From NCBI RefSeq assembly GCF_018143015.1, contig NC_054740.1:50092240-50156239 (forward strand): DNA of 64,000 bases. Reading direction: 5' to 3'. The notes under the pieces were generated by a model. It saw only the letters and a list, made by a program, of their open reading frames with translations. It was not told where the DNA came from and did not search any database. Both the position numbers and the translations under genes were made by a program. This stretch comes from Lytechinus variegatus. Its lineage: Eukaryota > Echinodermata > Echinoidea > Temnopleuroida > Toxopneustidae. Each line of letters opens with the position of its first letter. Within the stretch, counting starts at the first letter, position 1. Shown piece by piece: positions 4,349-64,000 of the stretch.

Positions 4349-5017
4349 GCGCTCCATAGTATTAGTGATCGCAATATTAAAATGGTCACTACTTTCTCAT
4401 TATTTGTCCGATTTTTCTCAAACTTGCTTTGATCTTATATTCTGTGATTTTTCTGTAAAAAAAAATGTTCCAAAGGTTTCATTCCCCTTTACCATAGTAA
4501 CCATGGTAAATTTATTTGTACCATGTTACGACCCAGGGCCGTTGCCCGAACATTTTTTTTTTGGGGGGGTGGGGGCGTACCAGGTAAATTTGCAAACTAA
4601 CTTGGCACAGAGATATACGGTCTTATGTACACGTAAGCTCCCGAAGGGAGCTAGAGAGGGAACTCTAGGGTTTTTTTAGACATAGCCAACATGGCTGCTG
4701 GCGGAAAGGTTGATTTTGGAAGGTCAATATTTTATTCTTGACAATGACGTCAAATTACGCAAACTACCGGCGAGGTGCTTTTTTTGGACTCTGCGAATTT
4801 CAAGTTTCTGAAACGAAATAGCTAGACTAATCATCTGTTTATAGAATTAATGTTCGGAATCATGATTTCTGAGTGATCTTCATTGGAGCAGAAAATCTTG
4901 GAGGGAACAGCGATATAAATTTTAATGATATTCCATCCGAATAAAATAAATCAAGTTAATTTTCATGTTTTGATCTCACTTGCAATCGAAATGTGTTTGC
5001 CAGGGTTCGAGGGCATG

Positions 5018-6580
5018 TACTTTACACAACAAAAATATAAGTCCACCTTAAACAAACATCCATAATTTCCGAACCAAATTGAGTTTATAACATATGTTTA
5101 CATTAGCGTGTAGAAGAATTTATAAGCTACCATCTGTATTAATGTTATGGACGTATTTTATGTCATGCTTCAGTGAGCACCGCCAGAAGACAAAATTGTC
5201 ACTTTTCAAAAGTCACACGCCAAATATCATGATTTTTCTTCTACTTTATTGGAACGAATTCCACATTCTCATCATGAAAAATAGTCAGAAGACTAGTAAA
5301 AGTTACTTTCTAAAAGACGATACAAGTTTTTTGGCTAAATTTTACAGTTAACTAAATACAAGTTTAAATTTAGTATAATTTGATTTTTTACACATTTCTA
5401 TCGATAAAAATGATCGAATATGATGGCAGTTATTTTTGGGAAGAGTATCTTCAACAATATTCATCGTTTCACGGATCAACGGTCATTTAATGAAAGCAAA
5501 AATACGAATTTCAAATATAGGCAAGTATTGTTTCATTTTGGTATTTTTTCGTTATATTCATGACCAATTAACATGCTTCAATGATTCAAATGCGTTTAAT
5601 TAAACATTCACGCTTGAATGAACATGTGGAATGTGATTAACTATTTTTTACGTTATTGGAAAAACTGCAGTTGCTAACTATGGATATCTGTCACAAACCT
5701 CCTTTCATAGTTCATTTAATTTGATTTTGGTAAAAAATCCCGATATGCTTCAGTGAGCACACAATATTCGAAAAATATGCAAATGCGAAGAAAGTTTAAG
5801 GCCTTGGTCCCACTCTGTGCCGTTTCGAATGATTATCTCGATGTACGCGCCTTTTGGATAGTCTTACTCTGAAGCCATGTGCGAAGTTTTATGGAAAAAA
5901 AATGTAGGCAGAAGTAACAGAAACCGTCCATGAAACAAACCCTCATTTCCTTTTTGTTAAAATGTTGACTTCCCCTCTCATAGACATTGTGTACACCATG
6001 TGTGCAATGTTTAAGGATAGTGACCCCTTATTTATTATGGTGGAACTTTTGTTCAAGGCTGTCTTTAGCAATGTCATTTCGCAGTTATGTTTATGAACTT
6101 ACGGGCAAAATTATGTGCCAAAATGAAATCGATATATTTATTTATGGATGAGTGAGCATCCATCAAAGTGGGAAAAGGGACACTTTCAACATCACAGACT
6201 CATTTTGAGGTGATATATATAGTGAATAATGGGGGCAAATCCGGTTTCAAATGTGACTTAATTGCTTTTGTTTTTATTATCCATCAGTTTTATCACCACA
6301 CATTTTCCGAACATTTTACATTTTCATGGTTGAGCTAGCACATTCAAAAACTTGGGAATTAATACTCTTTATACTGCATAAATATATTTTTTCCTTTTAA
6401 TTTCTCAGGAGCAGTTGAATTTATGGACAAATCAGTGGTGGATCCAGAATTTAAAAATGGGGAGGGACCGAGTTATTGGGAGTGAGTGACACCAACATTT
6501 TCCTATTTTAACATGCTTTTAACAAGTTGTAGGGGATACTGCCATAAACCCCTATCATGATAAGTCATAAAACATTGTTC
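5018..6580 (-). repeat. ~1.5 kb dispersed repeat, copy B (inverted)
   Basis: Inverted relative to copy A and mirrored in the right arm at 61935-63490. The inner end carries 'acacaacaaaaatataagtccacc', the counterpart of the 'gacttac' end of copy A. Confidence 0.75.
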
Positions 6581-7326
6581 ACTCAACCATAAACAAACGA
6601 TTTAAAAATTTTGTGTGAGGTGGCTAAATGATGGATGGTAAAACAGCTCTAACACCATAAAGTTTCCCTAAAAAAACAACTTTTGTCCCACTTTGTATTT
6701 ACACAATCTGAAAAACCACTCTTGTGACTTTCAAACATTGTCATTTTTAATTCAGTCTTTGATAAGCCAGTTCGTAGTTCCTTTCTGCGCATGATCAAAA
6801 GATTCTACGCATGATCAGAAGAAGGTCATTTGTACTAAAGTAACATGGTGCTTTAAATCTAATGAGATAGGCACCAACTTTGATGTCTTGATTATTCATG
6901 TATTCTTTCTAATTGTCGTTTCCATTTACATCCACAAAAAACAACAATGCTTCCACGAACGACTGGTATTTCAGTTTGTCAAGTACATTGTGCAACATGC
7001 TAAGATGTGCATTCAAAGTAGGAATGCAACAGCTACCTTCATTAAGTGTTCATTGAAGTGCTATTCTAGTCACCTGATCTATTCAATTTCTTCATCCTGC
7101 TATGAAAGGCAAGCTTACGTAATATCTTGCTTTGAAATCTGCCTATCATAATGAAAGAAATGAAAGGTCATTTGACCTAAATTGCCCATGAAGTAACCAC
7201 GAACTGGTCTATAACTCATGCATGACTCAATCGATCAATCGTATTTTTCTCCAGGAGTTGCTTAATGAGTGTAGAAAATATCATATTTCAAAATTATTCC
7301 GTTCAAAAGTTACAGCAATTTGATTT
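6581..7326. other. No gene recognised
   Basis: Unique-looking AT-rich sequence with an unsupported 87-codon frame (6888-7151) that also exists, with substitutions, in the mirror arm. Confidence 0.4.
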
Positions 7327-7640
7327 AGGGGGACTTACTTTTTGTTATGTACACAACAACAAAAGTAAGTCCCCCTTCTAACAAACATCAATAATTTCCG
7401 AACCAATGCGAGTTTTTAATATATTTTTACATGAGCGTGTAGGTAACTTCTTAAGCTACCCTCTGAGTAAATGTTATGGACGTGTTTTACGTCATGCTTC
7501 AGTGAGCACCGTCAGAAGGCAAAAATGTCACTTTTCAAAAGTCACAAGCCAAATATCATGACTTTGATTCCATTTTATTGGAACTAATTCCACATTCTCA
7601 TCACGAAAATAGTCAGAAGGCTTGTAAAGGCCACCGCACA
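7327..7640 (-). repeat. Partial copy of the ~1.5 kb repeat with back-to-back ends
   Basis: 7327-7376 is a near-perfect palindrome of two 'gggggacttacttttgtt' ends. The rest matches the inner 280 bases of copies A and B. Mirror at about 60893-61189. Confidence 0.7.
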
Positions 7641-8060
7641 CTTACGACCCGACTGGTCGGCGACTGGCTTGCGACTGAGTGAGGGGAGATGAATCGCATT
7701 TGTTTTGTACACATATTTTCAGATTTTCCCCTTTATTTTACATATTTCACATTATCACCTCCAGACCTTGACATATATGGTGTGGATTATATTTTCTCAT
7801 GAGATATGTTGTGCTCAGAAGGAGGCAAGATGCAATTTGAAAGATGAGGAAAATCTGAAAATTTGTGTACAAAACAAATGAAGAGTTGTCCACAAAATCA
7901 GCCATTTTGTAGCACGTTTGCCAATTTGAGGATCCACATAGAAAGTACAACAAGACTTTTTAATCGTCCATAACTTGCTTATTCCATAACCGATTTTGAT
8001 GAAACTTTTTTTTTAAATGGTTCCTCTCAATTTACTCTTTCCAATAAGATTGCTTCTATT
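7641..8060. repeat. Dispersed repeat, also at 23780-24140
   Basis: Shares 'cttttgttttgtacacaaatt...cagattttcccctttac' and 'aagagttgtccac' segments with 23780-24140, and with the mirror copies. Non-coding. Confidence 0.55.
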
Positions 8061-8488
8061 CTTAGGTAGCTGTGCTGGTATTCCTGTCCGGCTAGCATAG
8101 AACCAGTGGGAAGCAGCCGCGAAATTTAACGTTGATTTTTTGGGAGAGGGGCCTTCTAACCGGGGGGTTTAACCCCCCCCCCTTCGGGGAGCTAAAACAA
8201 GGATATCGGTCAGTTCCAGACATACTTGTATGTAACTCTCTAATTAGAGGTATTATGCATGTTCATGTTTTATAGTTATGTCATTGTGACACCAGAATCC
8301 GAAAAGCATTCATCTCTGTTTAATAAAGCCACGACATAATCGCACTGTCACGTGTGAAGTGACTTTTTTTAATTATTTACCTACTGCTGCTTGACAGCAA
8401 ATAAGGAATACGTAAAACTGAGGATTACAATTATTAGAAGATTTAATCAAATCTCTTCATCCATTCTTTTGTTCTCTTTTGATTGGGT

Positions 8489-9169
8489 TTACACTTATTG
8501 TACATGAAAAATATACATAGATATAACAAAATACATCTTAACTGAATAATAACAGTTGACTAGAGCCCCCATCATCTCTTCTGGCTTGACATGCCCCAAT
8601 CGGCCCTGGTGGTCGGTCCAGTTCCTGGCCTCCGCAGCTTGCGATGTCTCTTCCACTCGGCCTCCGCAGACAGTTACCCCTTGCTGAGTAGCCTCCAGAT
8701 CAGAGAGATGTGGCTTCAACGAATTAGTGGACGAGATCGAGCCCCCAATAACGACATGAATTTTGACCAATCATGTCAGTGGAGAACCGGCGGCAGCTGG
8801 GGTCGTTATCTCTTCACCGACGTAGTCCCTCAGTTTTAACTTAGACTGCCTATATATACTAACTTCTGTAGTCTATTCTAGCTTAGGTGGTTCTCCCTGA
8901 ATTACTGAAACTAACCATCAAATAGATACCGTTACTAGGACTAACTGTAAAATTTCTATAAAGTAATTCAAAGAATTTCAATAACAGATGAGTGCATAAA
9001 GCAACACATTCTTAATAATAAAAGGCTTCCTGTACAGCTGTAATTCTACATTCATCAATTCTAGAGCACTATTGGCTGTTCATGACACTTGTATGAAAAT
9101 GCTTCACCTAATAAGAAATATTTCTAACACATGTACAAAATATGACATAAATCTGGTACACTTGTACTC
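8489..9169 (-). mobile_element. Possible LTR-type promoter and leader remnant (left copy)
   Basis: On the minus strand a TATATATAGG box (8850-8859) is followed by a GC-richer leader. The trinucleotide TCA then leads directly into TTGGGGGCTCGATCTCGTCC, which resembles an LTR end plus tRNA-type primer site. Neither the second LTR nor coding sequence was found, so this is a tentative call. Mirror at 59350-60030. Confidence 0.25.
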
Positions 9170-9372
9170 TAAGGGGGGGGGGGAGTATCAAGCGTTTCCA
9201 ATGCTTGCTTTTCAAAACATATGTACATGCTTGTCTACAAGACAACCCTAACCTGGATAAAGTAAAAATGTTTAACACATGTTTAAATTTTAACTGAAAC
9301 ATTCTTAAATTAAATTTCTTTCCTTACACGCACATTATGTTGTTATTTCATTTTGTTCGCCGAGAATAAGTA

Positions 9373-9720
9373 ATAATAATAATAATAATAATGAAATTAT
9401 TAAACAGCACTTAAAATGCATATACGGGGACTGGTGCCTGATCTTAATGCCCTGTTCACCCACAGGAATAAGAAATCTGTATCTGTATCTGTCCGTTGGC
9501 GTACAAACACCAGCATCTGGTTGTCGCGTACGTTTGGGTTTAGGGGGTCAAGCGCTAAACACAGTTAATTTTGGTAGTGTGCTTTGGAGACAAGCGTGTT
9601 GATGTCCAAACTTTCAAGTTTGAGTTTGAAAACTCCTCCGTCTTTAGAATTTCTGACATCCTCAGAGAGAAGGTTCCATTCTGGGATGGTCTTGGGATAC
9701 AGGGAGTGTCGGTAGCAGTT
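9373..9720 (-). pseudogene. LINE ORF2 3' end with (ATT)n tail (left copy)
   Basis: The minus strand at 9720-9565 reads LYPKTIPEWNLLSEDV and FKLKLESLDI before a stop, the typical C-terminus of CR1-like LINE proteins ('PRTIPEWN' region). A 3' untranslated region with 'cagatacagatacagattt' and a trinucleotide (ATT)n tail follow. It is 5' truncated. Confidence 0.75.
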
Positions 9721-10680
9721 TTGATCATCATCATGTCCATCATGGCCTTTATTTTTACAATTATCACCATAATCCGCATTGTTATCATCTCCATCTTCAT
9801 CATTATATAATTATGAACAAAATAACATTTCCGTTCTGCTTTATAAATGTATTTATTAATTTAATGACTCTTATTCCGGTCATTTTTTCCAAGCAATCTA
9901 CTTGTAATGACAATCCTTCTCCAGCACACTGTAAATGTTATAATTCTTTTTTCGTTGGTAGTAGATCATATTTGTTTATAATGACTTTAATATATATATA
10001 TATTATTGTGTATGATTCATACAAAAATCAATTACCGATATGGTATATTTGATACGTAATGGATATGGTATTGTATACGAAGGTTATGAATGCAGAAGAA
10101 AACAATAATGAAATCAAATACACAGCAAAAAAAAACCTGTCTGAGTCGACTAATATAAAACAACATAATTATTTTGCTCTGTTTGACACACCAAGCGCCT
10201 CGTATACTCTAGAAAATGTTTTTGGGACATATCGTCAAATTACATGTTCATAACTATTCCCTTTTCACACGTAATAATTCCATCGACAAACTTTTGGACT
10301 ATCAATATCATTTTGTAGTCACAGATAAGCAAGGTCACTGACCTCCATTTCCTCGGCTCCTTAGTACGCTCATCTTTAATATACACGAAATAGTCAAGTA
10401 ATAACATCTGATATAAATCTACATATAATTATGACATTCATTTTGATTTTTTTTTCTACATTTTCCTTTTAAACTATGGCTAAAACACCTGCCTAATATG
10501 ATCAATTCTATCTGATTCTGGTATTAATACTTGTTTTGCGTTGCAAACCTTGTCACATCTTAAACAATGTTTTTTTTATTTACATAACGAGTTCATGGAT
10601 AGCATTGGAAACAAGGAAAAGGGTATGTGTGTATGTTGGGTGTGAGACAAAGAGAGAGACAGAAAGAAAGAATTGTAGAT
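9721..10680. other. No gene recognised
   Basis: AT-rich DNA with a short (TA)n tract near 9990-10004 that is longer in the mirror arm (41897-41919). Confidence 0.4.
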
Positions 10681-12615
10681 GTTATATATAAGAATAATTG
10701 TAGAAGAATATTATGAAAGCAGTTACATTAATCTATTAGTTATTTCCTCTTTAAAAATAGCCTAGAATGATCAAGTACATTCCACAGCATGTTTGTAAGA
10801 ACGTTCCAGATGTCTTTATATTATGCAGGCCTTGCCTATTTAAAAGGCCAAGGAGTTGTATTGTTATTTCTGAATAGAGATTAGGAACAATAGGCTTAGC
10901 TATGTTATTGACACTCTTGATTTCAATGAGGTCATTCAAGAATGTTTTAGAAATGAAGAAGGCTCCTGAAAGAGGAAGAACATTCTTTTGGAAGGCAATG
11001 CTAGAACTTTCCATTATAGTGAAATCTAGAAGGATAGCTGTAATGGGTATATAAAAGCTGCAGTTTCTTTAAGGATTTCATCACATCATATTAGATCACT
11101 TGATCACCACATCATATGAGAGCAGGAGATCACATCACATCATATGAGAGCAGGAGATCATCACATCATACGAGATCCCTTCACCAGATCATATCAGTTT
11201 ATTTCCACCTGGAATATCTATATTGTGTGGAATTATTTGCCCACCATCAATGAACTGTTTGCAGTTATCTTGAGAGAGAAATTATCAGTTCTCATCGAGA
11301 TCATCAACATCATCAACCTGTTCAATGAACACTCTTCAACCCATGTATTGCTGAATTTCACTGTTAATCATCATCAACATCGTCTTCACGGACATTTCAA
11401 CTCGTTACAGTGACTTTTATTATTCATCGGACTTCAACATCAGTTTCATCATCGCCATCATCAATAAGGAATCTTCCCAGCCTACCTGGAAAATAAATTG
11501 GACTATAACAGTGAACTATAACCCTGGATTGTACATCAAACACTTCAAGAGATTAATGTAAGATTATTTGGTTTTATTTTGTTTAAGTACATGATCAATT
11601 TCCTGTAATAAAAAAAAGGAAAATTTAAACTTTATATTTTAAAATCTACTTGTTATTTGTTGCAGTATCGTAACATAGAATGTTACGTTACTGCAACAAA
11701 TAACAATAAAATAATTTGAAATTGAATGTCCTTTTCTTTTATTACAGGAAATATAACACTCAAAAACTAAGAAAACATAAATAAATATCTTACGCCTCTT
11801 GAGGTGACAGATGTGCAATATATCCGATTAATAATCCAAATGATAAAATCCAGATAAGAGTCCACAATGATGGCGACGATGAAACTGATGCTGAAGCACG
11901 ATGAATAACAAGAGTCACTGTAACGAGTTGAAATGTCCGTGAAGACGATGTTGATGATGATTAACAGTCAATTTCAGCAATCCATGGGTTGAAGAGCGTT
12001 AATTGAACAGGTTGATGATGTTGATGATCTCGATGAGAACTGAAAATTCCTCTCTCAAAATAACTGCAAACAGTTCATTGATAGTGTGCAAATAATTCCA
12101 CAGAAGATAATTATTCCAGGTGGAAATCAACACCGCTCTGACATAAAGTGTGGCATGAAACTCTGAGTTCTGATCTGATATGATGAAGTAATCTGATATG
12201 ATGTGATGATGTCCTTTTATATGCACATTTCAACTATTCTAGATCATTCTAGTATTCACTATTCTAGAGGCTTCTATATAGTATTCACTATTATGGAAGG
12301 TTCTAGTATTGTCTTTAAAAAAACATTCTCCTTTCAGGAGCAGTCAAATTCCAGAAGACTCTTGAATGACCTCATTGAAATTAACATGTGTCAACAAAAC
12401 AGCTAAGCCTATTCAATTCCACTACCAATACAATTTTATTGTAAAGTAATCTCGATTCAGAAATAACAATAATCCTTGGCCTTTAAATAGGCAGAGGCCT
12501 ACTTAACAAAAACTTATGTTGTGGAATGTTCTTGATCATTGTAGGCTATTCTTAAAGGGGGGAAATTACTAAATAAATGAATGTAATTGCTTTTACAATT
12601 CTTCTTATATATAAC
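10681..12615. mobile_element. ~1.9 kb foldback element downstream of the P450 gene (left copy)
   Basis: Begins GTTATATATAAG and ends with its complement. The two halves are imperfect inverted copies meeting near 11678, where 'gtaacat' faces 'atgttac' across three bases. Both halves hold the same diverged sequence, for example 'catcatcaacatcgtcttcacggacat' facing its complement. A GATCACATCA-type minisatellite lies at 11085-11190 in one half only. No transposase seen. It ends beside the P450 3' end. Confidence 0.8.
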
Positions 12616-12745
12616 AAGAAAGAAAAGGGGAAAGAAATAAAGAAAGAAAACAAGAAAGAAAAAGATAAGATAACAAAGAAAGAAAGAAAGAAAAGAAGAC
12701 AGAAATAATGGATGAATAAATGAATGAATGAATGAATGAAAGAGG
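12616..12745. repeat. Tetranucleotide microsatellites (GAAA/TGAA)
   Basis: Interrupted AAAG/GAAA runs followed by TGAA repeats between the foldback and the P450 stop codon. Mirror at 39137-39266. Confidence 0.8.
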
Positions 12746-12769
12746 CGACAAAGTCAGAAAGTAACATTT

Positions 12770-12948
12770 TTACAATCTTTTCTCAGCTCTAATACGGAAA
12801 TCAGGCGGTATCAATGCAAGTCCAGGTATTGGTTCAGTGTTTGTCGGTGAATCCTCAGACAAGTAAAAGTTGAATCTTTGAAGGAGACACGTGAAAGCCA
12901 GGAAGATTTCCATCTTTGCCAATATCTCTCCCAAGCACGAACGACTCC
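12770..12948 (-). CDS. P450 left copy, exon 6 (haem cysteine and stop)
   Basis: Follows an acceptor ending ATAG and completes the haem loop with SRSCLGE, the cysteine being the thiolate ligand. It then runs through the C-terminal helix L and beta sheets ([13 protein letters not shown]) to TAA at 12772-12770. A (TTTC)-type microsatellite follows within 60 bases downstream. Confidence 0.92.
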
Positions 12949-15900
12949 CTATGCAATTTAAAGTAATAAATCAACTGGTTTAATCATCAAAGTGATTGGA
13001 ATTGGCTGTTCGAAAGGATATTAATACTAAATAATAATAATATTATCTGTGTACCGCTATCATAAAACATGTCTCTAAGCGATAAGGAAAATATATAGAG
13101 AAGGAATTTCAGCAAAATGACCCTGAAATTTACTGCAATTATCAGGGTTACATGTAAATGTGCAGATGAGGATTACTGTGTGCAAATTACGCAAAAGTAT
13201 GAAATCATTAAATCATCATGTTGTAAAATCAAATAAATTCGAAGGTAAAAAGAAATATCAAACCAACATAACGCTGAAAATGTCATTGAATTTGGATGTA
13301 AAGATTTTACAAAAATAGTTTCATCATCCTGTCGGTTTCCAATTTGAACCCGATCACGTCACTCGCTATTTTTAAGAATAATTTTGTATCCATTTTGTCT
13401 TTAACATAATACAAACACATTAGAGAATTTCTGGCTAAAAACATGGGCAGAGGTGCCCCTAATTATTATTATTCACCACGAGAAGCCCTCAGGAGAATAG
13501 TACTATGTGATGTTCCTTCGATGCGAACAGTTTCACCGAGATCCCCGATAGTATAACATAGAGTGTCAATCGCGCCAACATTCTGAAATAATTGAAATAA
13601 CCATTAACCACGAGAAGCTCTTTCAACCAATCAAAGAAGGATAAATATTTAATCCCAAATGTAAAGCGAAATAAAGCTTTATTTCACCCAGGAATTAGTA
13701 GCATTTCAATTGTTGTTGCATATACAACTTTTTGTGAAAATAGGTGAATGAAAAAAATGTAGTAACTCTCTTGTTTTTCATTCAATTTTGATGAAATTTT
13801 CTGGCCCGAATTCACAAAGGTGGTGTTAAAACCATCGGTTGAACCCATTGTTTATGCAGATTTCCTCTATAAATTACGCTGACAATGACGCATGTTGACG
13901 TGGATATCCACACTATTCTTTTCATGAGTCCACCGTTTTGAATTAATGAGCCCGCTCTCGATTAAGTCAGTAAACCTGGCAATTGAGCGCGCTTCACACG
14001 CCCACTATAATATTAATGACTCAAAAATTTTGCTGGTGCCCCCCAATGCCATGACCCACCGTACGCCACCGCAATGAATAATACAAACGAAAAAAATGAT
14101 ATCCCCAGTTTTCGATATACATTTGATAATAATCGTAAAAAGAGCGTCTAGACCAAAATTTAGCAGTTTGGAGTAATATTCAAGGTTTTACAGCCAAATT
14201 ATTATTTTATGCATCAAAATAATCAAAAAATAACTTTGATTTTGGAAGAATTGAATAGAGGCCTATCAAATGAGGGACGTTACGCCATGAGGGAGGTGCG
14301 CGCCAATTTTCGGCGAGATCGCTACCAAGATCTGTTCGATAAGGGAGGGGGGGAACACCTCCTCCACCTTGCCTTGGCTATAACAGATTAAGCATCATAA
14401 ATATATATCCCTTACTGAAAATTTATTGGTGTTTGACTAGTTGAGAACCTTTCGAATCATAATTTCACGAGAAAAATGAAATTCATCGAAGATCAAGAGT
14501 CTCCGAGATTCACCGGCAAGTTTGGTGATGCGACGGCACAGACGCTTTATCTGCATGGGTCCGCTGAGCGCAGCAGAATCAGCACACACGCAGGTAAATA
14601 CAATACTAGCTCTTGGGCCGCGGATACAAGGGGGGGGGGGGCCCCCCCCCCCTCCACCAATTTTTTCCAAAACTGTAAACAAAAACGTAAAAATGACCAC
14701 ACGATAGTGATTCTTTGCATGCTCATGCAGCCCCCCCCCCCTTTGAAAACCGCTCTGCGGTCCCTGCTTAAGCTGAATCACAAACTTTCCGATAATTAAA
14801 TGTCATTGTGAAACCTCGTCTTGCTTTTTTATAATTTCCCCTATTTCCTTTTGATTTAACCGGTTCATGCTCAAGTTGTTATTTGTTATATTCATATGCT
14901 ATGCAACTACAGGAATATTCATTAGGAGGCTGCACTCTATAAGCGCCGCTTTTTAGCAGCCTCCTCCATTTCCATCCTGATATGGAATAATCTTGAATAC
15001 AATTTTTGCACAGGGATACCTAAAATATGTTTTGTTATTTATATGTCAAAATGTACAAAACAAATTGTAATTGTTGAAAATGGAAATAAACGAAATGAAA
15101 TAATGATTCTGCATGCTAAAATGGCCGTCATTCGATCATCGAAAGATTCAGGCTGCTTAATTTTAGTTCACAACCTTCACAACCGGTAAGTGAAATTATT
15201 AGACGAGCTCACAGCCACGCCGCGCAATACCAAATCACCTCGAGTGATGCTTGGGAGCCGGTTGGGTAATAGCCGCGCGCAGTTAAGCTGATATAGATTT
15301 TGTTCAGTTCATGGAGATGGGTCAATTAGAACATTACCAATATTTTCGTCCAAACTTTAAAATTGAAGGGATATAAAACAAATATACCGGGTGTTTCTTT
15401 CGAAAGGATAGTCAAAGCATTCTTCGGTTGGTCTGGCAACCTCGGATAAAATATTTCCACTATACTTTTTCAAACTCGGTACGACGACGGTTTACCAACC
15501 ATCATCACCAACACCACCTGACTTGTCACATAAAAGCATGTGATATACCATGGACCTATTAAGAGCCTACCTGTACCAAATGGAATGAATGCATCCGGTT
15601 TGATAATGCTCTTCCCATCTTCACACAGAAATCGTGAAGGTTTGAACTTTTCAGGCTGGTCCCAGTACTCTGTACTGTGCATGAGCTCCCATAAATTCAC
15701 GAGGACCGCTAAAATGTCGAAGGCAAGAGAAGATGAAAAGAAAACATTGCAATATAAGAATTAGCTTAAAAACTAATGTTGTTACATCAAACTAATTCAA
15801 TTTGATATGTTGAAGCCATTTTTGATACCTGTATATGCTTGACTGACTTCTGTTTTGCAGATTGCTTACCAAACAACACCTGCCTGCATGAAGAATTGCA

Positions 15901-51607: not shown

Positions 51608-51755
51608 TAGAAGTAGAACAACAAGAAGCTCTTGAAAAAGCTGGAATCACACTTGAAGCAGCTAAACATTCATTCGTGGAAAGAGCCTCCAGTTCATTGT
51701 TTGGAAGAAGCGTTAGGAAGATGGTCACGTCGAAATCAACAAGATACCTGGAACA
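51608..51755 (+). pseudogene. Exon-like fragment of an unassigned protein (first of two)
   Basis: The open stretch reads VEVEQQEALEKAGITLEAA and continues to TSKSTRYLE, bounded by a CAG at 51605-51607 and a good GTAAGT donor at 51756. Its last two bases join in phase to the exon-like piece at 53297. The reading is on the plus strand and is not one of the longest open frames, so the call rests on splice signals plus the continuity of the second piece. Function unknown. The start of the gene was not found. Confidence 0.45.
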
Positions 51756-53296: not shown

Positions 53297-53401
53297 AATG
53301 GATTTCTCACAACTCACGATGGGACAATTCCTGAAGAAGAGGTGTGGATTAAGTTTGGGGGAGATCATGGTGGACAGGTGGAGGCTCATTTAAGTTGGTG
53401 A
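53297..53401 (+). pseudogene. Exon-like fragment with IKFGGDHGG motif (second of two)
   Basis: Follows a TTTCCACAG acceptor and reads NGFLTTHDGTIPEEEVWIKF, then GGDHGG, before a premature TGA at 53399-53401. In the next frame the sequence carries on with TGGGSFKLVIQ, which suggests a small frameshift in an ancestral G-G-D-x-G-G-G-S-F-K motif. I recall such a motif in expanded, possibly transposon-related proteins of echinoderms and cnidarians, but could not check this. Captured gene piece or decayed transposase are both possible. Confidence 0.45.
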
Positions 53402-54642
53402 TACAGAGGTCTGCAATGTGGAAAACACAATGCCTCATAGAAATCCTTGTTTGTTGGATGCTATGAAGGTTCCTTCCATCTCATTGCTTCAGAAAATGAC
53501 TCATTCCATCACCAAGCAACTGACAAATGAAGAAGATTAAATGTAGAAGTTAGGATATTGGAGACATAAATTTCAAATATCTATTTTGTAACGTCACAGA
53601 TGTGTAGATTACTGAAAATTGTGTGATATAATTTTTTAATTTTTTATATAAAATTAAAAAGTAAAATAGCTGGCAGTTGTTTTAGATGTTTATTTTATCT
53701 GATGTAATATAGGTATGATTTAGATTTAACCTCTGATGTAACATACATATTTTTTCCTTCAATTTTTGAGACTAGGGGAACTAGTTGAAAGGATACATAA
53801 AATAAAAAAACCTATAAATATATTGGTAATAATGTCATTTTCATGTGTGAAATTAGATTTTTCAGATTATGTTGGTGACATTAGTTAAATATGACGTATC
53901 AACACTCAAATCAACAAAAGAAGAAATTCTTTGAATACATGTTTCACCAGAGAACAACTATCATGATGATAAAAAAGACGAACAGAATTTATGCTAATCT
54001 TCCCTGTACAAAACGTGCACACAGAAGACATGTTATATTAAAGATAAAAGGATCTTTGAAAAATGAAAGTCATCTTATGATGAAATTTAGAAAACAAGAA
54101 ATGCCACAAAAGAAGCGCGTGCAGAGATAAACTATCATGTATGAACTATAATAATAAATGTATATTTTGGTCTGATACAATAGAAAATTAAAATTTAGGG
54201 CCTACCTGACCTGTGTGTATAGTTTCTTGTGAATAAATGTAGCAATGTGTGTTATTGATTGATTCATTGAAACTAAAAAATTGAGAAAACAAAGAAATAA
54301 AAAAACACAAAATCCTTCATTTCAGACCCAATTCCCCGGACCCACCGTATAGACTCTATGAAGTACAGCATATTTTTAATGCAATACCCTCCCCATGTAT
54401 CTGAAAAAACCTCAAGCAGAATCTAACCCTAAAAAATCAATTAAAAAATCTAAAGAAATAAAAAAACACAAAATCCTTCATTTCAAACCCAATCCCCGGA
54501 CCCGCCGTATAGACTCTATGCAGTACAACATATTTTTAATGCAATACCCCCCCCCCATGTATCTGGAAAAACCTCAAACCTCAAGCAGAATCTAACCCAC
54601 CCTAAAAAAATCAATTAAAAAATCTAGAATCTATAGGGCCTA
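53402..54642. other. Transposon interior, no gene recognised; short tandem duplication
   Basis: A duplicated unit of about 160 bases occurs at 54290-54440 and 54455-54610, sharing 'cacaaaatccttcatttca' and 'ccgtatagactctatg'. A basic 79-codon frame at 53891-54130 has no recognised domain. Confidence 0.5.
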
Positions 54643-54770
54643 CTAGTACTACCACTTAGCCGAGAGGACACAGTGATATTTTTATGATTTTGATATTGTC
54701 ATTTGATCAAATGACAATATCAAAATCATAAAAAATATGATCACCGAGTCCTCCAGGCTAACTAGCAGTA
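54643..54770. repeat. Spacer-free palindrome inside the DNA transposon
   Basis: The axis lies between 54706 and 54707. The inner 28 bases on each side (54679-54734) are perfectly complementary. Pairing continues with mismatches out to CTAG at 54643 and 54770. Length and terminal shape suggest a short foldback MITE or a cruciform-forming site. Confidence 0.75.
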
Positions 54771-55005
54771 GCACTGCTGGCCTTGAATCTAGTCACTAGT
54801 GCGGTGTAGTCAATATAGCCGCAGTATCACAGATATGGGTAACACTGACTGTAAATTTGTATGCAAAAAAAAAACAAATGGCCAAAAATATTGCAAGTGT
54901 TGTCATGATTGTGAAAATAAGAGTCTAGACCAAGACTGTGAAATACCCTTTTTTACGAGTCAAAGTTAGCACTCTCAGTCTCACTCAGGCAGTCTGGCTC
55001 AGCTA

Positions 55006-55440
55006 GCTCTGCCTTAACCCAGGGAGCGCCCAGGAGCTCATGTATTGACCCATACTCATGGGACAAGGGTAGATTATGGTCAAAATATCTAGCAAGATAA
55101 ATTATGAAAACAGAAATTATGCACTTACCACGATTACAGTATATGGATGAAGGTCTAACGATCGATGGCAATTCATAACAAAAATGGCCGATCGAGACGG
55201 GGGTAGGAGAAAACTTTTCGTTTGTTTGAGGTTCCAGTCTGTGCCCAGATGTCTGAAAAACTGCCACTCGTTAGACCATCATCCATATAATCGTGGTAAG
55301 TGCAAAATTTCTGTTTTCATAATTTATCTTGCTAGATATTTTGACCATAATCTACCCTTGTAGACCATTGAGTATGGTCAATTACACGGTAAGCTCCTGG
55401 GCTCCCGCCCGCTACGCGGACGGGAGTTCCCTGGGTTAGC
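55006..55440. repeat. Inverted repeat pair with roughly 105 bp spacer
   Basis: Arms at about 55006-55165 and 55270-55440 share 'gggtagattatggtcaaaatatctagcaagataaatt' type sequence in opposite orientation, plus a shared stretch around 'ctcctgggc' and 'ccctgggtta'. The second arm has an extra GC-rich hairpin (CCCGCCCGCTACGCGGACGGG). Part of the cargo near the 3' end of the DNA transposon. Confidence 0.7.
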
Positions 55441-56048
55441 TCTGCCTCAGCTCACGAAGCGCAGCTGAGCTGCTGTGTACATGAGCGGTGTCTGACCACA
55501 CAGCCAGGCGGCCCGCGACCCGGCCCTGCCCGGCTTCACCCGAGGTAGCGGCGCCCACATCCCGTACAAACAGAATGTGCTGTATCGAAAAATGAAACTA
55601 AAGTAAATTCTAATGTTGGGTCCCACGAAAAAATGCGCCAGATGAATCTTAAGTGCAATGAAAACAAAACTAAAATAATTACGAAATGCTGACAAACCGG
55701 ACTTTTTACATTTTGGACCTTATAAAGTTCCATAATTAGGTCCAGATTTGCGAGTTAACATTGGATGATGCAAACGCAAACAACATCACAAAATGGAAAA
55801 AAACAGAAAACGTATAATCCCATTGCCATACTTACGACTTTAAACATGGAAAAAAATGTTTCCTCCACGGAATTCTTGCGAAATAAATAAACTGTTGGGG
55901 ACAGACAGAGAGAGTTGGTCGTGTCAGCGCCAGATGCCACAACATTCGCCAAAGATTTTTTCATCGCCCCTGTAGAGATTGCAGCACAACAACGTTAAAT
56001 GCATATGCGCACTTGGGCCGCGAGGGGGCGCTAAGCTTATTTTCACTC

Positions 56049-56061
56049 TGAAACAGCCGTG
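56049..56061 (-). repeat. 3' terminal inverted repeat of the DNA transposon
   Basis: TGAAACAGCCGTG, directly followed by CTAT, after which the retrotransposon coding frame resumes. Confidence 0.85.
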
Positions 56062-58634
56062 CTATGGGTATGCCGGGATCAGAGACAGCATTGGAGGAGT
56101 TGATGTGTCGAGTGCTTGGAGATCTATTGTTTGAAGGTGTTGTTGTCAAGCTTGCAGACGACTTGTACTGTGGTGCTGACACCTGGCAGGCCCTTTTGCA
56201 TAACTGGTCCAGGGTGTTACATGCACTAGCCTCCAATGGTCTTCACCTGTCTCCATCTAAGACTACCGTCTGTCCAAAAACAACCACTATTTTAGGATGG
56301 GTTTGGTCTGAAGGGAGCCTCAAAGCAAGTCCTCACAGAATAACAACTTTGTCAACGTGCTCACGCCCTTCAACCGTGAAGGGAATGCGGTCTTTCATTG
56401 GAGCCTATAAGATGCTTGCTCGCGTTCTCCCAAATTGCGCATCCTATCTGGGCCCCCTGGATGATTCGATTGCAGGTATGAAATCTCAAGACCGCATCTG
56501 CTGGACGGATGAGCTTCATGATGCCTTCAACAAAGCCCAGTCCGGCATCAAGTCTACTCGTACGGTTACTCTTCCCCGGCCTTCTGATCAGCTATGGGTT
56601 GTCACTGATGGATCCGTGAAGAACCATGGTCTTGGCGCAACCATGTACGTCACGAGAGACAGGACGCCTTTCGTCGCAGGTTTTTTCAGCGCGAAGCTCC
56701 GTGGTCGTCAAATCACATGGCTACCTTGTGAAGTAGAAGCACTATCCATCGCTGCTGCCACCAAGCATTTCAGCCCATACATCATCCAGTCTCACCACCC
56801 TGTCTGCATTCTTACTGACAGCAAACCTTGTGTTCAGGCTTATGAGAAATTGTGTCGTGGTAAGTTTTCTGCCAGTCCTCGGGTTTCTACCTTTTTGGCC
56901 ACCATTAGCAGATACCAGGTTTCCTTACGTCACCTGGCGGGCTCCGCCAATGTCCCAGCTGACTTTGCGAGTAGGAATGCTCCTCCATGCCATGATGTTC
57001 GATGCCAGATCTGTACTTTCATTTCACGGATGGAAGACTCTGTTGTCCATCTTACTTCTGTTGCTGACATCCTCTCAGGAAAGATACGCCTCCCTTTCAC
57101 ATCTCGTCACGCGTGGAGTAGGATTCAGTCTGATTGTCCAGCCCTCCGCCGTGCCCATGCCCACCTTACTCAGGGTACTCGCCCGTCGAAGAAGTTGACA
57201 GGTATCCGTGATGTGAAGCGATATCTCCAGGTTGCCACCATCGCTCGTGATGGATTACTGGTCGTCCGCCGGGATCATGCATTCTTGCCACAGCAGGAGT
57301 GTATCGTCATTCCTCGCAATGTACTCCAGGGGATTCTTACTGCCCTGCATCTTCAACTTGGTCACCCCACATCACACCAACTCAAGCAGGTTGTCACACG
57401 GTTTTTCTATGCCCTGGATCTTGATGTAGCAATTCAACAGGTGACTGTCGGATGTCATAGCTGTCTCTCCCTCCAGAATGTTCCTCGTGTAGCTACTCCC
57501 CAGTCTACAGGTGACCCTCCATGTGTCATTGGGGTGTCTTTTGCTGCGGATGTCATCAAGCGTTCTCGCCAACTCATTTCCATCCTCAGGGAGAGTGTCA
57601 CTTCTTACACTGTAAGCGCTTTGATCCCTGATGAACGCAAGGAGACTCTTCGCGCAGCCCTCCTTCAGCTATGCACACCTCTCAGGCCACTTGATGGCCC
57701 TCCATCTATCGTCCGCACCGACCCTGCACCTGGATTTTCTGCTCTACAACACGATGAGTCTTTGCGCAGTCAGGGCATCACTTTGGAGGTTGGCCGTGCC
57801 AAGAACATCAACAAGAATCCTGTCGCTGAGAAGGCTGTCCGTGAGCTTGAAGATGAGCTGCTTCGTGATGATCCCCGTGGTGGTCCTGTTACTCCACTTG
57901 CACTTGCTCTGGCCACCGCTCGTCTTAACAGCCGTATCCGTGGCGTTGGTCTTTCTGCTCGTGAGCTTTGGACCCAGCGTGACCAATTCACCAGTGAACA
58001 GATTCCGTTGCATGACATGGACGTTATTACCAATCAACATGAGAAACGGCTCTCCAACCATGGGCCCAGTATGGCATCGAAGGCACCCAAACGCCTATCT
58101 TCGATGGGTGAGTCTCTTGTTCATGTTGGTGACCTTGTCTACCTGCGCTCGGACCGAACTAAGACCCAGGCCAGACCTCGCTACCTTGTCTGCAGTGTCG
58201 ACAACGATTGGTGCAACATCCGCAAGTTTGTTGGGAGCCAACTCCGTTCTACGTCATACCGTGTCCGGCGCTCGGATTGCTTGAAGGTCCCCCCAGGGAT
58301 TCCTACCTCCCATCCTACTCGACCGAGGGTTTCTGATGACGATGACGACAACCACCGTGATGAGGAGTTCCCCAGTACCAGCTCGGCGGATGACTCACAA
58401 TGCTTGCCTAATGCCTCTGACGTTACTGATGTGCCGGATGTCCCTTGCCCCCCTCCTGACCCCCCTGATATTCCCCACGAACTTTCTCACCCTGATGTTA
58501 GTCCTCCCCTTTCACTTTCTGGTCAGTCAGATCCCTCAGGGCCTCTTGACATCAATACCCCCGATAATGGCCGGCGGTATCCCTTACGCCGTCGTGTCCC
58601 CCCTTCGTATTTTAGCGACTACGTTTGTGATTGA
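56062..58634 (+). pseudogene. Retrotransposon RT-RNaseH-integrase, 3' part of a split polyprotein
   Basis: The frame resumes immediately after the DNA transposon. Counting from the Met at 56064, the RT catalytic motif is L-A-D-D-L-Y at 30-35, where most elements have Y-x-D-D. RNase H follows with D182 (TDGS), E223 and D252. The integrase zinc finger H-x4-H...C-x2-C lies at about 429-467. The integrase core has D496, D553 and E589, the last two separated by 35 residues as expected. A small C-terminal beta-barrel-like region lies near 686-742, followed by an acidic, proline-rich tail ending at TGA 58634. The frame is open throughout, so the insertion is the only visible lesion. Confidence 0.86.
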
Positions 58635-59191
58635 CTTTGGCCTGCTTTTATGTCCCTTCCCCCCTCCCCATTGCCTGTGCCTTGTCCAGCTTGCCCTTTA
58701 CTGATGGACTTTTGCTGATGGACTCTATTTTTTGGTATATATCTTTTGTTTTTTTTTATGCATTTTTGCAGCTTTAACTTTTTGGGTGTACTTATGCATG
58801 CTAATGGGTTTTTTAATGCGTCTAGCTTTTTTTCAGCTACCAAACAAACGAAAACAGCAAGCCAGCTCTATTTAAAGATTTTGATTCTAATTTGATAGTT
58901 TAGTGCTGTCAGGATCCTCACCTTACCAAACGAATACCTTTTCTCACTCCAGCTAATTCGCCTACTACCAGTTGCTGCTTATTTTTGTGCTTGTGATAAG
59001 TTATGCTGCGCATTTAGTTTTTTTGGTTATTATTTTCGGTTTTGTGTGATGTCTCATCTGTGGTAATGTCTTTGCGTATGTTTGCGTATTTTTTTTGCAG
59101 TTATTTGCGAGTTTACACTTTTATATTTTGACAATACTTTTACAAAGCTTTTTGCCTTGGATCATTGCAAAATTCTTTTCGTTTACATATT
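58635..59191 (+). other. Retrotransposon 3' untranslated region
   Basis: About 560 T-rich bases between the integrase stop and the polypurine tract. No open frame, envelope-like gene or other motif was recognised here. Confidence 0.5.
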
Positions 59192-59206
59192 AAAGGAAAA
59201 AGTGGT
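59192..59206 (+). promoter_or_regulatory. Candidate polypurine tract
   Basis: The purine run AAAGGAAAAAGTGG ends two to three bases before the 3' LTR, the position where plus-strand priming occurs in LTR elements. Confidence 0.6.
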
Positions 59207-59208
59207 TA

Positions 59209-59349
59209 CGCCATTTGATGTTATAGTGTTATAGCGCCATCTGCGTCTGTCATGCGACAACTCGTCTGTCCTACACTTCGGTTAATTACGGTTAATAAAA
59301 GTATTGATCTACAACTACAAAGTTGCAACTGTGTCTTAATTTATTGTCG
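59209..59349 (+). repeat. 3' LTR (141 bp)
   Basis: Perfect copy of 42742-42882. The next bases, GAGTATAAGTG, continue the host sequence seen uninterrupted in the left arm near 9170, with one SNP. Confidence 0.85.
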
Positions 59350-60030
59350 GAGTATAAGTGTACCAGATTTATGTCATATTTTGTACATGTGTTAGAAATA
59401 TTTCTTATTAGGTGAAGCATTTTCATACAAGTGTCATGAACAGCCAATAGTGCTCTAGAATTGATGAATGTAGAATTACAGCTGTACAGGAAGCCTTTTA
59501 TTATTAAGAATGTGTTGCTTTATGCACTCATCTGTTATTGAAATTCTTTGAATTACTATATAGAAATTTTACAGTTAGTCCTAGTAACGGTATCTATTTG
59601 ATGGTTAGTTTCAGTAATTCAGGGAGAACCACCTAAGCTAGAATAGACTACAGAAGTTAGTATATATAGGCAGTCTAAGTTAAAACTGAGGGACTACGTC
59701 GGTGAAGAGATAACGACCCCAGCTGCCGCCGGTTCTCCACTGACATGATTGGTCAAAATTCATGTCGTCATTGGGGGCTCGATCTCGTCCACTAATTCGT
59801 TGAAGCCACATCTCTCTGATCTGGAGGCTACTCAGCAAGGGGTAACTGTCTGCGGAGGCCGAGTGGAAGAGACATCGCAAGCTGCGGAGGCCAGGAACTG
59901 GACCGACCACCAGGGCCGAGTGGGGCATGTCAAGCCAGAAGAGATGATGGGGGCTCTAGTCAACTGTTATTATTCAGTTAAGATGTATTTTGTTATATAT
60001 TTGTATATTTTTCATGTACAATAAGTGTAA
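59350..60030 (+). mobile_element. Possible LTR-type promoter and leader remnant (right copy)
   Basis: Mirror of 8489-9169. The TATA-like box is at 59661-59670 and the GGGGGCTCG primer-like site is near 59770. It lies directly beside the inserted retrotransposon but is host-arm sequence, because the left arm has it too. Confidence 0.25.
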
Positions 60031-60892
60031 ACCCAATCAAAAGAAAACAAAAGAATGGATGAAGAGATTTGATTAAATCTTCTAATAATTGTAATCCTCA
60101 GTTTTACGTATTCCTTATTTGCTGTCAAGCAGCAGTAGGTAAATAATTTAAAAAAGTCACTTCACACGTGACAGTGCGATTATGTCGTGGCTTTATTAAA
60201 CAGAGATGAATGCTTTTCGGATTCTGGTGTCACAATGACATAACTATAAAACATGAACATGCATAATACCTCTAATTAGAGAGTTACATACAAGTATGTC
60301 TGGAACTAACCGATATCCTTGTTTTAGCTCCCCGAAGGGGGGGGGGTTAAACCCCCGGTTAGAAGGCCCCTCTCCCAAAAAATCAACGTTAAATTTCGCG
60401 GCTGCTTCCCACTGGTTCTATGCTAGCCGGACAGGAATACCAGCACAGCTACCTAAGAATAGAAGCAATCTTATTGGAAAGAGTAAATTGAGAGGAACCA
60501 TTAAAAAACGTTTCATCAAAATCGGTTATGGAATAAGCAAGTTATGGACGATTAAAAAGTCTTGTTGTACTTTCTATGTGGATCCTCAAATTGGCAAACG
60601 TGCTTCAAAATGGCTGATTTTGTGGACAACTCTCCATTTGTTCTGTACACAAATTTTTAGATTTTCCTCATCTTTCAAATTGCATCTTGCCTCCTTCTGA
60701 GCACAACATATCTCATGAGAAAATATAATCCACACCATATATGTCAAGGTCTGGAGGTGATAATGTGAAATATGTAAAATAAAGGGGAAAATCTGAAAAT
60801 ATGTGTACAAAACAAATGCGATTCATCTCCCCTCAATCAGTCGCAAGCCAGTCGCCGACCAGTCGGGTCGTAAGTGTGCGGTGGCCTTTACA

Positions 60893-61189
60893 AGCCTTCT
60901 GACTATTTTCGTGATGAGAATGTGGAATTAGTTCCAATAAAATGGAATCAAAGTCATGATATTTGGCTTGTGACTTTTGAAAAGTGACATTTTTGCCTTC
61001 TGACGGTGCTCACTGAAGCATGACGTAAAACACGTCCATAACATTTACTCAGAGGGTAGCTTAAGAAGTTACCTACACGCTCATGTAAAAATATATTAAA
61101 AACTCGCATTGGTTCGGAAATTATTGATGTTTGTTAGAAGGGGGACTTACTTTTGTTGTTGTGTACATAACAAAAAGTAAGTCCCCCTA
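60893..61189 (+). repeat. Partial copy of the ~1.5 kb repeat (right)
   Basis: Mirror of 7327-7640, with the back-to-back 'gggggacttac' palindrome at 61139-61188. Confidence 0.7.
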
Positions 61190-61934
61190 AATCAAATTGC
61201 TGTAACTTTTGAACGGAATAATTTTGAAATATGATATTTTCTACACTCATTAAGCAACTCCTGGAGAAAAATACGATTGATCGATTGAGTCATGCATGAG
61301 TAATAGACCAGTTCGTGGTTACTTCATGGGCAATTTAGGTCAAATGACCTTTCATTTCTTTCATTATGATAGGCAGATTTCAAAGCAAGATATTACGTAA
61401 GCTTGCCTTACATAGCAGGATGAAGAAATTGAATAGATCAGGTGACTAGAATAGCACTTCAATGAACACTTAATGAAGGTATCTGTTGCATTCCTACTTT
61501 GAATGCACATCTTAGCATGTTGCACAATGTACTTTACAAACTGAAATACCAGTCGTTCGTGGAAGCATTGTTGTTTTTTGTGGATGTAAATGAAAACGAC
61601 AATTAGAAAGAATACATGAATAATCAAGACATCAAAGTTGGTGCCTATCTCATTAGATTTAAAGCACCATGTTACTTTAGTACAAATGACCTTCTTCTGA
61701 TCATGCGTAGAATCTTTTGATCATGCGCAGAAAGGAACTACGAACTGGCTTATCAAAGATTGAATTAAAAATGACAATGTTTGAAAGTCACAAGAGTGGT
61801 TTTTCAGATTGTGTAAATACAAAGTGGGACAAAAGTTGTTTTTTAGGGAAACTTTATGGTGTTAGAGCTGTTTTACCATCCATCATTTAGCCACCTCACA
61901 CAAAATTTTTAAATCGTTTGTTTATGGTTGAGTG

Positions 61935-63490
61935 AACAATGTTTTATGACTTATCATGATAGGGGTTTATGGCAGTATCCCCTACAACTTGTTAAAAGCA
62001 TGTTAAAATAGGAAAATGTTGGTGTCACTCACTCCCAATAACTCGGTCCCTCCCCATTTTTAAATTCTGGATCCACCACTGATTTGTCCATAAATTCAAC
62101 TGCTCCTGAGAAATTAAAAGGAAAAAATATATTTATGCAGTATAAAGAGTATTAATTCCCAAGTTTTTGAATGTGCTAGCTCAACCATGAAAATGTAAAA
62201 TGTTCGGAAAATGTGTGGTGATAAAACTGATGGATAATAAAAACAAAAGCAATTAAGTCACATTTGAAACCGGATTTGCCCCCATTATTCACTATATATC
62301 ACCTCAAAATGAGTCTGTGATGTTGAAAATGTCCCTTTTCCCACTTTGATGGATGCTCACTCATCCATAAATAAATATATCGATTTAATTTTGGCACATA
62401 ATTTTGCCCGTAAGTTCATAAACATAACTGCCAAATGACATTGCTAAAGACAGCCTTGAACAAAAGTTCCACCATAATAAATAAGGGGTCACTTATCCTT
62501 AAACATTGCACACATGGTGTACACAATGTCTATGTGAGGGGAAGTCAACATTTTAACAAAAAGGAAATGAGGGTTTGTTTCATGGACGGTTTTTGTTACT
62601 TCTGCCTACATTTTTTTCCATAAAACTTCGCACATGGCTTCAGAGTAAGACTATCCAAAAGGCGCGTACATCCAGATAATCATTCGAAACGGCACAGAGT
62701 GGGACCAAGGCCTTAAACTTTCTTCGCATTTGCATAATTTTCGAATATTGTGTGCTCACTGAAGCATATCGGGATTTTTTACCAAAATCAAATTAAATGA
62801 ACTATGAAAGGAGGTTTGTGACAGATATCCATAGTTAGCAACTGCATTTTTTCCAATATCGTAAAAAATAGTTAATCACATTCCACATGTTCATTCAAGC
62901 GTGAATGTTTAATTAAACGCATTTGAATCATTGAAGCATGTTAATTGGTCATGAATATAACGAAAAAATACCAAAATGAAACAATACTTGCCTATATTTG
63001 AAATTCGTATTTTTGCTTTCATTAAATGACCGTTGATCCGTGAAACGATGAATATTGTTGAAGATACTCTTCCCAAAAATAACTGCCATCATATTCGATC
63101 ATTTTTATCGATAGAAATGTGTAAAAAATCAAATTATAGTAAATTTAAACTTGTATTTAGTTAACTGTAAAATTTTGCCAAAAAACTTGTATCGTCTTTT
63201 AGAAAGTAACTTTTACTAGTCTTCTGACTATTTTTCATGATGAGAATGTGGAATTCGTTTCAATAAAGTAGAAGAAAAATCATGATATTTGGCGTGTGAC
63301 TTTTGAAAAGTGACAATTTTGTCTTCTGGCGGTGCTCACTGAAGCATGACATAAAATACGTCCATAACATTAATACAGATGGTAGCTTATAAATTCTTCT
63401 ACACGCTAATGTAAATATATGTTATAAACTCAATTTGGTTCGGAAATTATGGATGTTTGTTTAAGGTGGACTTATATTTTTGTTGTGTAA
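61935..63490 (+). repeat. ~1.5 kb dispersed repeat, right-arm copy
   Basis: Mirror of copy B (5018-6580). Its own inverted partner (copy A) would lie beyond the window end. Confidence 0.75.
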
Positions 63491-64000
63491 AGTACATGCC
63501 CTCGAACCCTGGCAAACACATTTCGATTGCAAGTGAGATCAAAACATGAAAATTAACTTGATTTATTTTATTCGGATGGAATATCATTAAAATTTATATC
63601 GCTGTTCCCTCCAAGATTTTCTGCTCCAATGAAGATCACTCAGAAATCATGATTCCGAACATTAATTCTATAAACAGATGATTAATCTAGCTATTTCGTT
63701 TCAAAAACTTGAAATTCGCAGAGTCCAAAAAAAAGCACCTCGCACATAACTCGTGGGGAATTGTGGGAAGGAAAAACGTGTTTAATGCATAAGTATATGA
63801 ATAACACATTAGTACTTTAGCCAATCACAGAAGTGCCGGTAGTTTGCGTAATTTGACGTCATTGTCAAGAATAAAATATTGACCTTCCAAAATCAACCTT
63901 TCCGCCAGCAGCCATGTTGGCTATGTCTAAAAAAAACCCTAGAGTTCCCTCTCTAGCTCCCTTCGGGAGCTTACGTGTACGTAAGACCGTATCTCTGTGC

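Follow-up and report, generated by a model that had tools for sequence, protein, structure and literature searches.

The window, by which we mean the whole 64,000-nucleotide stretch of Lytechinus variegatus DNA analysed here, probably belongs to a real interstitial inverted triplication of a segment carrying a CYP2U1-like cytochrome P450 gene, with its copies arranged as A> <B C>, and a real, fairly recent duplication is the most likely reading in preference to a mix-up of two parental chromosomes. The assembly analysed (869.6 Mb in 33 contigs) carries three copies in this order, joined by a non-homologous junction, J1, and a spacerless junction, J2, and the three are distinct in sequence (Table 1). 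Self-BLAST of a 264-kb region placed the inverted middle copy between two direct ones, and the third copy rules out a simple two-copy palindrome. The original prediction had counted two copies and left a choice between a head-to-head duplication and a mis-join; its duplication reading is supported, and copy A extends it to an inverted triplication. Sequence distal to the unit is kept on both sides, copy A retaining the upstream flank and copy C continuing downstream, and the 264-kb region is free of any N, that is, of gaps. The genome-wide search for the unit used one 1,001-bp piece, with 40 of 7,171 first-look candidates scored; a 1.2-kb piece of the upstream flank gave one full-length match (40 of 4,002 first-look candidates scored), and the immediate downstream flank showed no repeat of at least 800 bp inside the 264-kb region except dispersed elements.

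Table 1. Features of the triplicated locus (window positions, except where C1 coordinates are given).
Feature	Position	Strand	Remarks
Copy A, mostly upstream of window	C1:50,034,617-50,093,205		
Copy A, distal tail	1..966	+	91791-93205 matches copy C 171231-172635 (self-BLAST of 264-kb region)
Junction J1	964..968	.	end of A joined to far end of inverted B, 1-bp overlap (C)
Copy B, inverted middle copy	966..25940	-	self-BLAST of window and 264-kb region
CYP2U1-like P450, copy B	12770..21372	-	gene model, 499 aa, six exons: 21372-21009, 19599-19371, 18617-18218, 16650-16461, 15708-15571, 12948-12770
Presumed mariner-like element, B side	24950..25938	-	about 1 kb, truncated by axis
Junction J2, perfect palindromic core	25547..26333	.	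393 bp each side of axis base 25940
Copy C	25941..64000	+	match to copy A continues past window to C1:50,172,635
Presumed mariner-like element, C side	25944..26931	+	same element as on B side
CYP2U1-like P450, copy C	30499..39112	+	gene model, six exons: 30499-30862, 32270-32498, 33254-33653, 35227-35416, 36172-36309, 38934-39112
LTR retrotransposon	42742..59349	+	16.6 kb; copy C only
Nested insertion	45421..56061	.	13-bp inverted termini CACGGCTGTTTCA / TGAAACAGCCGTG

Within the window, the inverted repeat is far above chance expectation. Self-BLAST of the window matched 9167-42741 onto itself in inverted orientation at 99.36%, paired 4770-9169 with 59350-63743 at 98.96%, and paired 4605-4771 with 63835-64000, giving matching arms of more than 21 kb outside the perfect core and bearing out the near-perfect repeat with a one-base axis that had been proposed. 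The left arm had been taken to start at 4605, but that position only reflects the right arm running past the window's end; the left arm itself ends at 966. A matching organisation of both arms had also been claimed, and the arms do align, but the LTR retrotransposon lies in the right arm alone, so that they are not co-extensive. Alignment of the inner 16.8 kb of the arms lists 26 indels (27 indel rows, one being the axis base) and 36 substitutions, six of which (23481-23488) represent two poly-C length differences rather than true substitutions. Because of this cluster, private sites were recounted with repeats masked.

The recount, over 21,366 repeat-masked columns, gave 53 substitutions private to A, 64 to B and 27 to C, alongside private indels of +1.6 kb in A, -91 bp in B and +16.6 kb in C; copy A also has an extra 18.4 kb relative to C, in a part of the unit to which B does not extend. 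Divergence is 0-1.1% across most of the unit, mostly 0.2-1.1%, the exception being the first 3.4 kb of copy A at 2.5-2.8%. Transitions are few relative to transversions at the masked private sites (66/78), for which reason some of these sites may be consensus errors. Private-site labels are clustered along the unit, with 54 switches vs 80.5 +- 5.2 in 5,000 shuffles, and when the masked set is divided into eight segments, all three copies contribute private sites in only four, C lacking them in three segments and A in one.

The gene is a family 2 cytochrome P450, CYP2U1-like, the subfamily being taken from the names of the matched proteins. Each copy holds an intact 499-aa P450, the protein being identical across A, B and C, and the coding comparison among copies shows a single synonymous change in 1,500 bp. 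Pfam p450 was found on five exon ORFs, the model includes the heme-binding loop FGTGSRSCLG, and PDB best matches include CYP2 chains. The best protein match (96%) is a Lytechinus pictus protein named cytochrome P450 2U1-like, which fits the earlier reading of the DNA as that of a marine animal. A higher P450 dose would be a likely consequence of the triplication.

The two junctions differ in kind. Comparison of the junction sequence with copies A and C shows J1 to be a non-homologous join, asymmetric by 12.8 kb, its B side lying 1 nt from the loop of a hairpin with an 8-bp stem that is present in the unit, as in A and C. At J2, copy A has a 6-bp inverted repeat (TATCAA-14 nt-TTGATA) exactly at the breakpoint, inside the approximately 1-kb element at the axis, which we take to be mariner-like because its ends are inverted and lie within a TA repeat. 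Among 8,000 random positions, a fraction of 0.004 lies within 2 nt of such a hairpin tip, and an inverted repeat of the J2 type occurs at 0.012 of 40,000 random positions with a loop of at most 20 and at 0.042 with a loop of at most 80, though these tests were picked after the junctions had been inspected and the J2 match is reached at 4-14% of random positions once 2 nt of slack is allowed. A short inverted repeat at J2 and a hairpin tip beside J1 are as expected for template switching of the ODIRA or MMBIR type. The loop at J2, however, is 3-5 nt vs the 14 nt predicted by simple ODIRA, a mismatch that rules out an exact ODIRA junction there, and a search for a 7-bp arm at J2 found none. For ODIRA at both junctions, J2 offers a 6-bp repeat whose loop sequence is not kept, and J1 is asymmetric, with a hairpin tip next to just one of its sides.

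We infer that the triplication arose when replication switched template at short inverted repeats. At the terminal repeat of the mariner-like element, the replicating strand would have turned back on itself, giving the near-perfect palindrome at J2, while J1 may have formed, or been revised later, by micro-homology joining beside the GC hairpin, leaving 12.8 kb duplicated, not triplicated. Separate transposon insertions would later have entered individual copies, and exchange, involving B and C close to the axis and A and C at greater distance from it, would have left neighbouring stretches alike. Only tentatively do we suggest that the germline chromosome keeps such a template-switch triplication palindrome intact and nearly spacerless, with arms that have diverged and been partly re-homogenised and with three identical P450s.

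The inverted arms of sex-chromosome palindromes stay similar to each other, apparently because they exchange sequence. The arms described here are likewise alike, apparently through exchange, but compared with the named sex-chromosome palindromes (PMC7023750) the structure has no spacer, is much smaller and includes a third copy in direct orientation. The yeast SUL1 ODIRA triplications, as described in PMC4689423 and PMC10766186, likewise have three copies with the middle one inverted and the flanks kept, and a palindromic junction located at a short interrupted inverted repeat, while the second junction can be explained if one arm of a palindrome was deleted secondarily; the present case differs in coming from an animal genome assembly, in its arms having diverged by up to about 1% and in a J2 loop shorter than predicted. 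The human PLP1 DUP-TRP/INV-DUP rearrangements (PMC4352052) similarly combine two junctions, one of them with a 1-bp overlap, so that some segments are triplicated and others duplicated, whereas the present locus is mostly far smaller, is not a patient variant, has its 12.8-kb duplication on just one side and showed no large inverted repeats flanking J2. Fold-back inverted duplications, too, show a short stretch of inverted sequence where the inversion is joined, but those described in PMC3907307 have spacers of 0.8-70 kb and a terminal deletion; here there is no terminal deletion, and the axis is one base rather than hundreds of base pairs to tens of kilobases of single-copy sequence. Local gene duplication in a sea urchin is shared with the SpTransformer segmental duplications (PMC8634487), which consist of tandem units on the kilobase scale with GA repeats at their borders, the unit here being tens of kilobases long, inverted and P450-bearing.

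The spacerless B-C axis is doubtful: it may be an exact junction or a fold-back artefact. The duplication (A plus B or C) might be real and the exact axis a sequencing or assembly fold-back, a single molecule having been read outward and then back before extension into another copy, which we regard as unlikely. The missing spacer would fit, as would the low B-C divergence alongside: over about 6 kb next to the axis B and C hardly differ, the first 6.4 kb of masked columns having no C-private and four B-private sites, a near-identity that a fold-back read would produce as well and that counts against the triplication. Such reads exist in ONT genomic data, amounting to about 0.55-0.6% of reads in one survey (PMC12870357) and to 1-4% in another study as cited there. 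However, three clean B vs C substitutions lie within 650 bp of the axis, the axis coincides exactly with a pre-existing inverted repeat, and PMC12870357 describes virtually no fold-back reads in PacBio HiFi data, with three PacBio samples examined, although the platform of the present assembly may differ. Same-molecule fold-back for the whole arms is ruled out by the private transposons and by divergence of up to 1.1%.

Alternatively, the triplication may be real and have arisen by breakage-fusion-bridge, broken sister chromatids fusing at J2 and the bridge break being repaired onto another chromatid at J1. This is distinctly unlikely, its probability being part of that given to a real triplication rather than additional to it. 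Fusion of sister chromatids (U-type) has been described as spacerless (PMC3907307), in line with the one-base axis, and the asymmetric J1 with its 1-bp overlap is also compatible; yet such fusion is described as losing distal sequence (PMC10766186), whereas both flanks are kept here, A upstream and C downstream, and the scheme calls for two events as well as a third chromatid.

Very unlikely is the reading of the arms as the two parental alleles of a single locus that the assembler put together head to head, a reading towards which the original prediction had leaned in invoking allelic variation: end-to-end arm alignment, presence/absence transposons, microsatellite length differences and the finding of only biallelic sites in the masked set speak for it, but instead of at most two distinct sequences diverging near the species heterozygosity, there are three, the third copy having its own private sites and insertions, the 0-1.1% over most of the unit lies mostly well below the approximately 3% quoted for L. 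variegatus (PMC11310861; a comparison that assumes typical local heterozygosity), the join at 966 is non-homologous and the 264 kb are gapless. A two-haplotype mixture may be envisaged in which the consensus changes haplotype at nearly every variant, and an allelic reading may still apply to the axis J2 itself.

Inverted triplications have been described from selected yeast (PMC4689423, PMC10766186) and human disease (PMC4352052), and long palindromic junctions are thought to undergo quick revision. According to PMC10766186, long palindromes lack stability and are seldom met in natural genomes, and it would count against the triplication that its palindrome must have persisted until the arms diverged. 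If true, the tentative reading of an intact germline palindrome would mean that palindromic junctions can last far longer than palindrome instability implies and that ODIRA-like events contribute to gene-family growth in animals, and would show a route to extra dose for detoxification genes. A natural case with the palindromic junction still present would allow age, stability and exchange to be measured directly in the population; should the axis turn out to be artefactual, the case would still usefully caution those who assemble genomes of highly heterozygous species.

Two scans for RNA genes in the window, one with bacterial code, found none. The LTR retrotransposon of copy C, inferred from its domains to be of Ty3/gypsy type, has identical 141-bp LTRs (42742-42882 and 59209-59349), and its coding region is broken by the nested insertion, which has CTAT at both sides.

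When the window (C1:50,092,240-50,156,239) and 200 kb around it (264 kb in total, from an assembly of 869.6 Mb in 33 contigs) are compared with themselves, one unit is found three times within the region, which has no N anywhere. These copies, termed A, B and C and each carrying a CYP2U1-like P450 gene, give the locus the anatomy of an interstitial inverted triplication, and this triplication is probably real. Searched across the assembly, a 1,001-bp segment of the unit had full-length or nearly full-length matches at three places, all at this locus, the remaining 79 of 82 listed matches spanning at most 684 bp (40 of 7,171 first-look candidates scored), and a 1.2-kb segment from the upstream flank had one full-length match among 79 (40 of 4,002 candidates scored). 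Among the papers listed by literature searches on inverted triplications, palindromes and sea urchin P450 duplications, none was seen to describe the locus.

Copies of the unit and elements within copy C (C1, contig NC_054740.1)
Feature	Position	Orientation	Ends	Basis or remark
Copy A	C1 minus 50,000,000: 34,617-93,205	forward		self-comparison
Copy B	C1 minus 50,000,000: 118,179-93,205	backward		self-comparison
Copy C	C1 minus 50,000,000: 118,180-172,635	forward		self-comparison
LTR element	window 42742-59349		identical 141-bp LTRs	copy C only
Nested insertion, 10.6 kb	window 45421-56061		13-bp inverted ends, CAC...GTG, CTAT on either side	interrupts LTR element

Comparison of the window with itself bears out the very large inverted repeat predicted to centre on base 25940, where a perfect palindromic core extends 393 bp to either side. 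The left arm was expected to begin at 4605; its end instead lies at 966, since B spans window 966-25940. The inner 16.8-kb arms are 36 listed substitutions and 26 indels apart (27 indel rows, one being the axis base), six of these substitutions really representing two poly-C length differences. This axis, the B-C junction J2, is the main doubt about the triplication, given that long palindromes are reported to be unstable and that reads folding back on themselves are known (PMC12870357); a real duplication with an artefactual axis is unlikely.

The two junctions differ in structure. At J1, the A-B junction (window 966), the unit position equivalent to 172,635 in copy C is joined to 159,869 in reverse with one base common to both, the B side lying 1 nt from the loop of a GC-rich, 8-bp-stem hairpin. 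J2 lies inside the terminal repeat of a ~1-kb element with inverted ends in a TA repeat, which we take to be mariner-like. In copy A, the sole copy with the upstream flank, the J2 breakpoint falls exactly at one arm of TATCAA-14 nt-TTGATA; no 7-bp arm was found there. By tests set up after the junctions were seen, a tip of such an 8-bp-stem hairpin is at most 2 nt away from 0.4% of random positions (n=8,000; 2-3% for 6-bp stems), and a J2-type repeat occurs at 1.2% of random positions with a loop of up to 20 and 4.2% with a loop of up to 80 (n=40,000), or at 4-14% with 2 nt of slack. Such triplications have been proposed by the authors of ODIRA, a replication template-switching model, to start with palindromic junctions that are later revised, for example by deletion of one arm (PMC10766186). 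J2 would then be a nearly unrevised palindromic junction and J1 a revised one; the model predicts a longer loop than J2 has. Close rivals as the origin are MMBIR, another template-switching model, and breakage-fusion-bridge, and the final structure does not tell them apart cleanly; breakage-fusion-bridge takes a minor share of the probability given to a real triplication.

Whether the arms are two haplotypes or a duplication had been left undecided by the original prediction, which leaned towards allelic variation. In a three-way alignment limited to the range covered by B, private substitutions number 111 in A, 77 in B and 33 in C over 24,128 clean columns, with one three-letter site, and 53, 64 and 27 over the 21,366 columns left after repeat masking; private sites of every copy are present in five of eight segments before masking and in four of eight after it. 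Copy-specific indels comprise 1.6 kb gained in A, 91 bp lost in B and 16.6 kb gained in C, and A carries a further 18.4 kb relative to C beyond the reach of B, both A insertions having short target duplications as well as inverted ends. Such sites and indels in all three copies are not what a simple mis-join of two alleles gives, although a consensus switching haplotype at nearly every variant could produce them. Most of the unit diverges between copies by 0-1.1%, well below the heterozygosity of about 3% quoted for L. variegatus (PMC11310861), except that the first 3.4 kb of A, much of it repeat-rich, diverges by 2.5-2.8% (75 A-private sites unmasked, 24 masked). A plain haplotype mis-join is improbable. 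Masked private sites comprise 66 transitions and 78 transversions, a lower ratio than natural variants would be expected to show, and a part of them may therefore be errors. C-private sites number 0 in the 6,000 clean columns nearest the axis and 33 in the other 18,128 (0.18%), which limits the substitution error rate in the former to about 0.05% or less, under the frequency of C-private sites in the latter. After masking, the 6.4 kb next to the axis hold 0 C-private and 4 B-private sites, C-private sites are also 0 in 45-49 kb, and A-private sites are 0 in 59-62 kb.

Likeness varies along the unit. Divergence between B and C is 0-0.3% as far as 52 kb and 0.8-1.1% further out; that between A and C is 0.2-0.5% from 38 kb onward and ~0.35% beyond the range of B (23 mismatches in 6,547 and 14 in 4,078 aligned columns), where another 2 kb aligns more poorly (94.5-96.8%). 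Site types are clustered: along 127 thinned sites the label switches 54 times, where 80.5 switches are expected, and each of 5,000 shuffles gave more. We read this pattern as exchange, of B with C beside the axis and of A with C at greater distance; near the axis, low divergence of B from C could also stem from fold-back reads.

Six exons encode a predicted, intact 499-aa P450 with the heme loop FGTGSRSCLG; the protein is identical in A, B and C, the coding sequence of B having a single synonymous change, and is 96% and 78% identical to P450s of Lytechinus pictus and Strongylocentrotus purpuratus, respectively. In 38-49 kb, coding sequence takes one of 38 variable sites against 14.8% of columns (binomial P 0.018). 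Both P450 genes in the window are transcribed away from the axis, which cuts none of their exons.

The right arm has a 16.6-kb LTR element that is absent from the left. It appears young, its LTRs being identical, and is flanked by just a 3-bp repeat (GAG). Pfam models for protease, reverse transcriptase, RNase H and integrase zinc-binding domains gave six matches in its two coding pieces, four of them under the curated cut-off, suggesting a Ty3/gypsy type. No start-codon ORF above 125 aa lies wholly within the nested insertion, and no stop-to-stop ORF above 199 aa in the 18.4-kb insertion of copy A (C1:50,068,533-50,086,929), which has long inverted ends (GGCCCGAATTCACAAAGGTGGAC...) and sits in an apparently LINE-like element uninterrupted there in copy C. 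Copy A also has a tRNA-like or tRNA-derived stretch (GGTGCCGTGGCCGAGTGGTC...; ~C1:50,035,647-50,035,722) in a 249-bp part whose C counterpart is only ~83 bp. Window 1115-2671 belongs to a dispersed repeat family, with 82% identity to 5023-6567 (reverse) and its counterpart at 61944-63489. Downstream of the unit, C1:50,175,245-50,179,892 (minus) holds a cluster of long ORFs that includes a cysteine-rich stretch and may represent a transposon or a gene of several exons.
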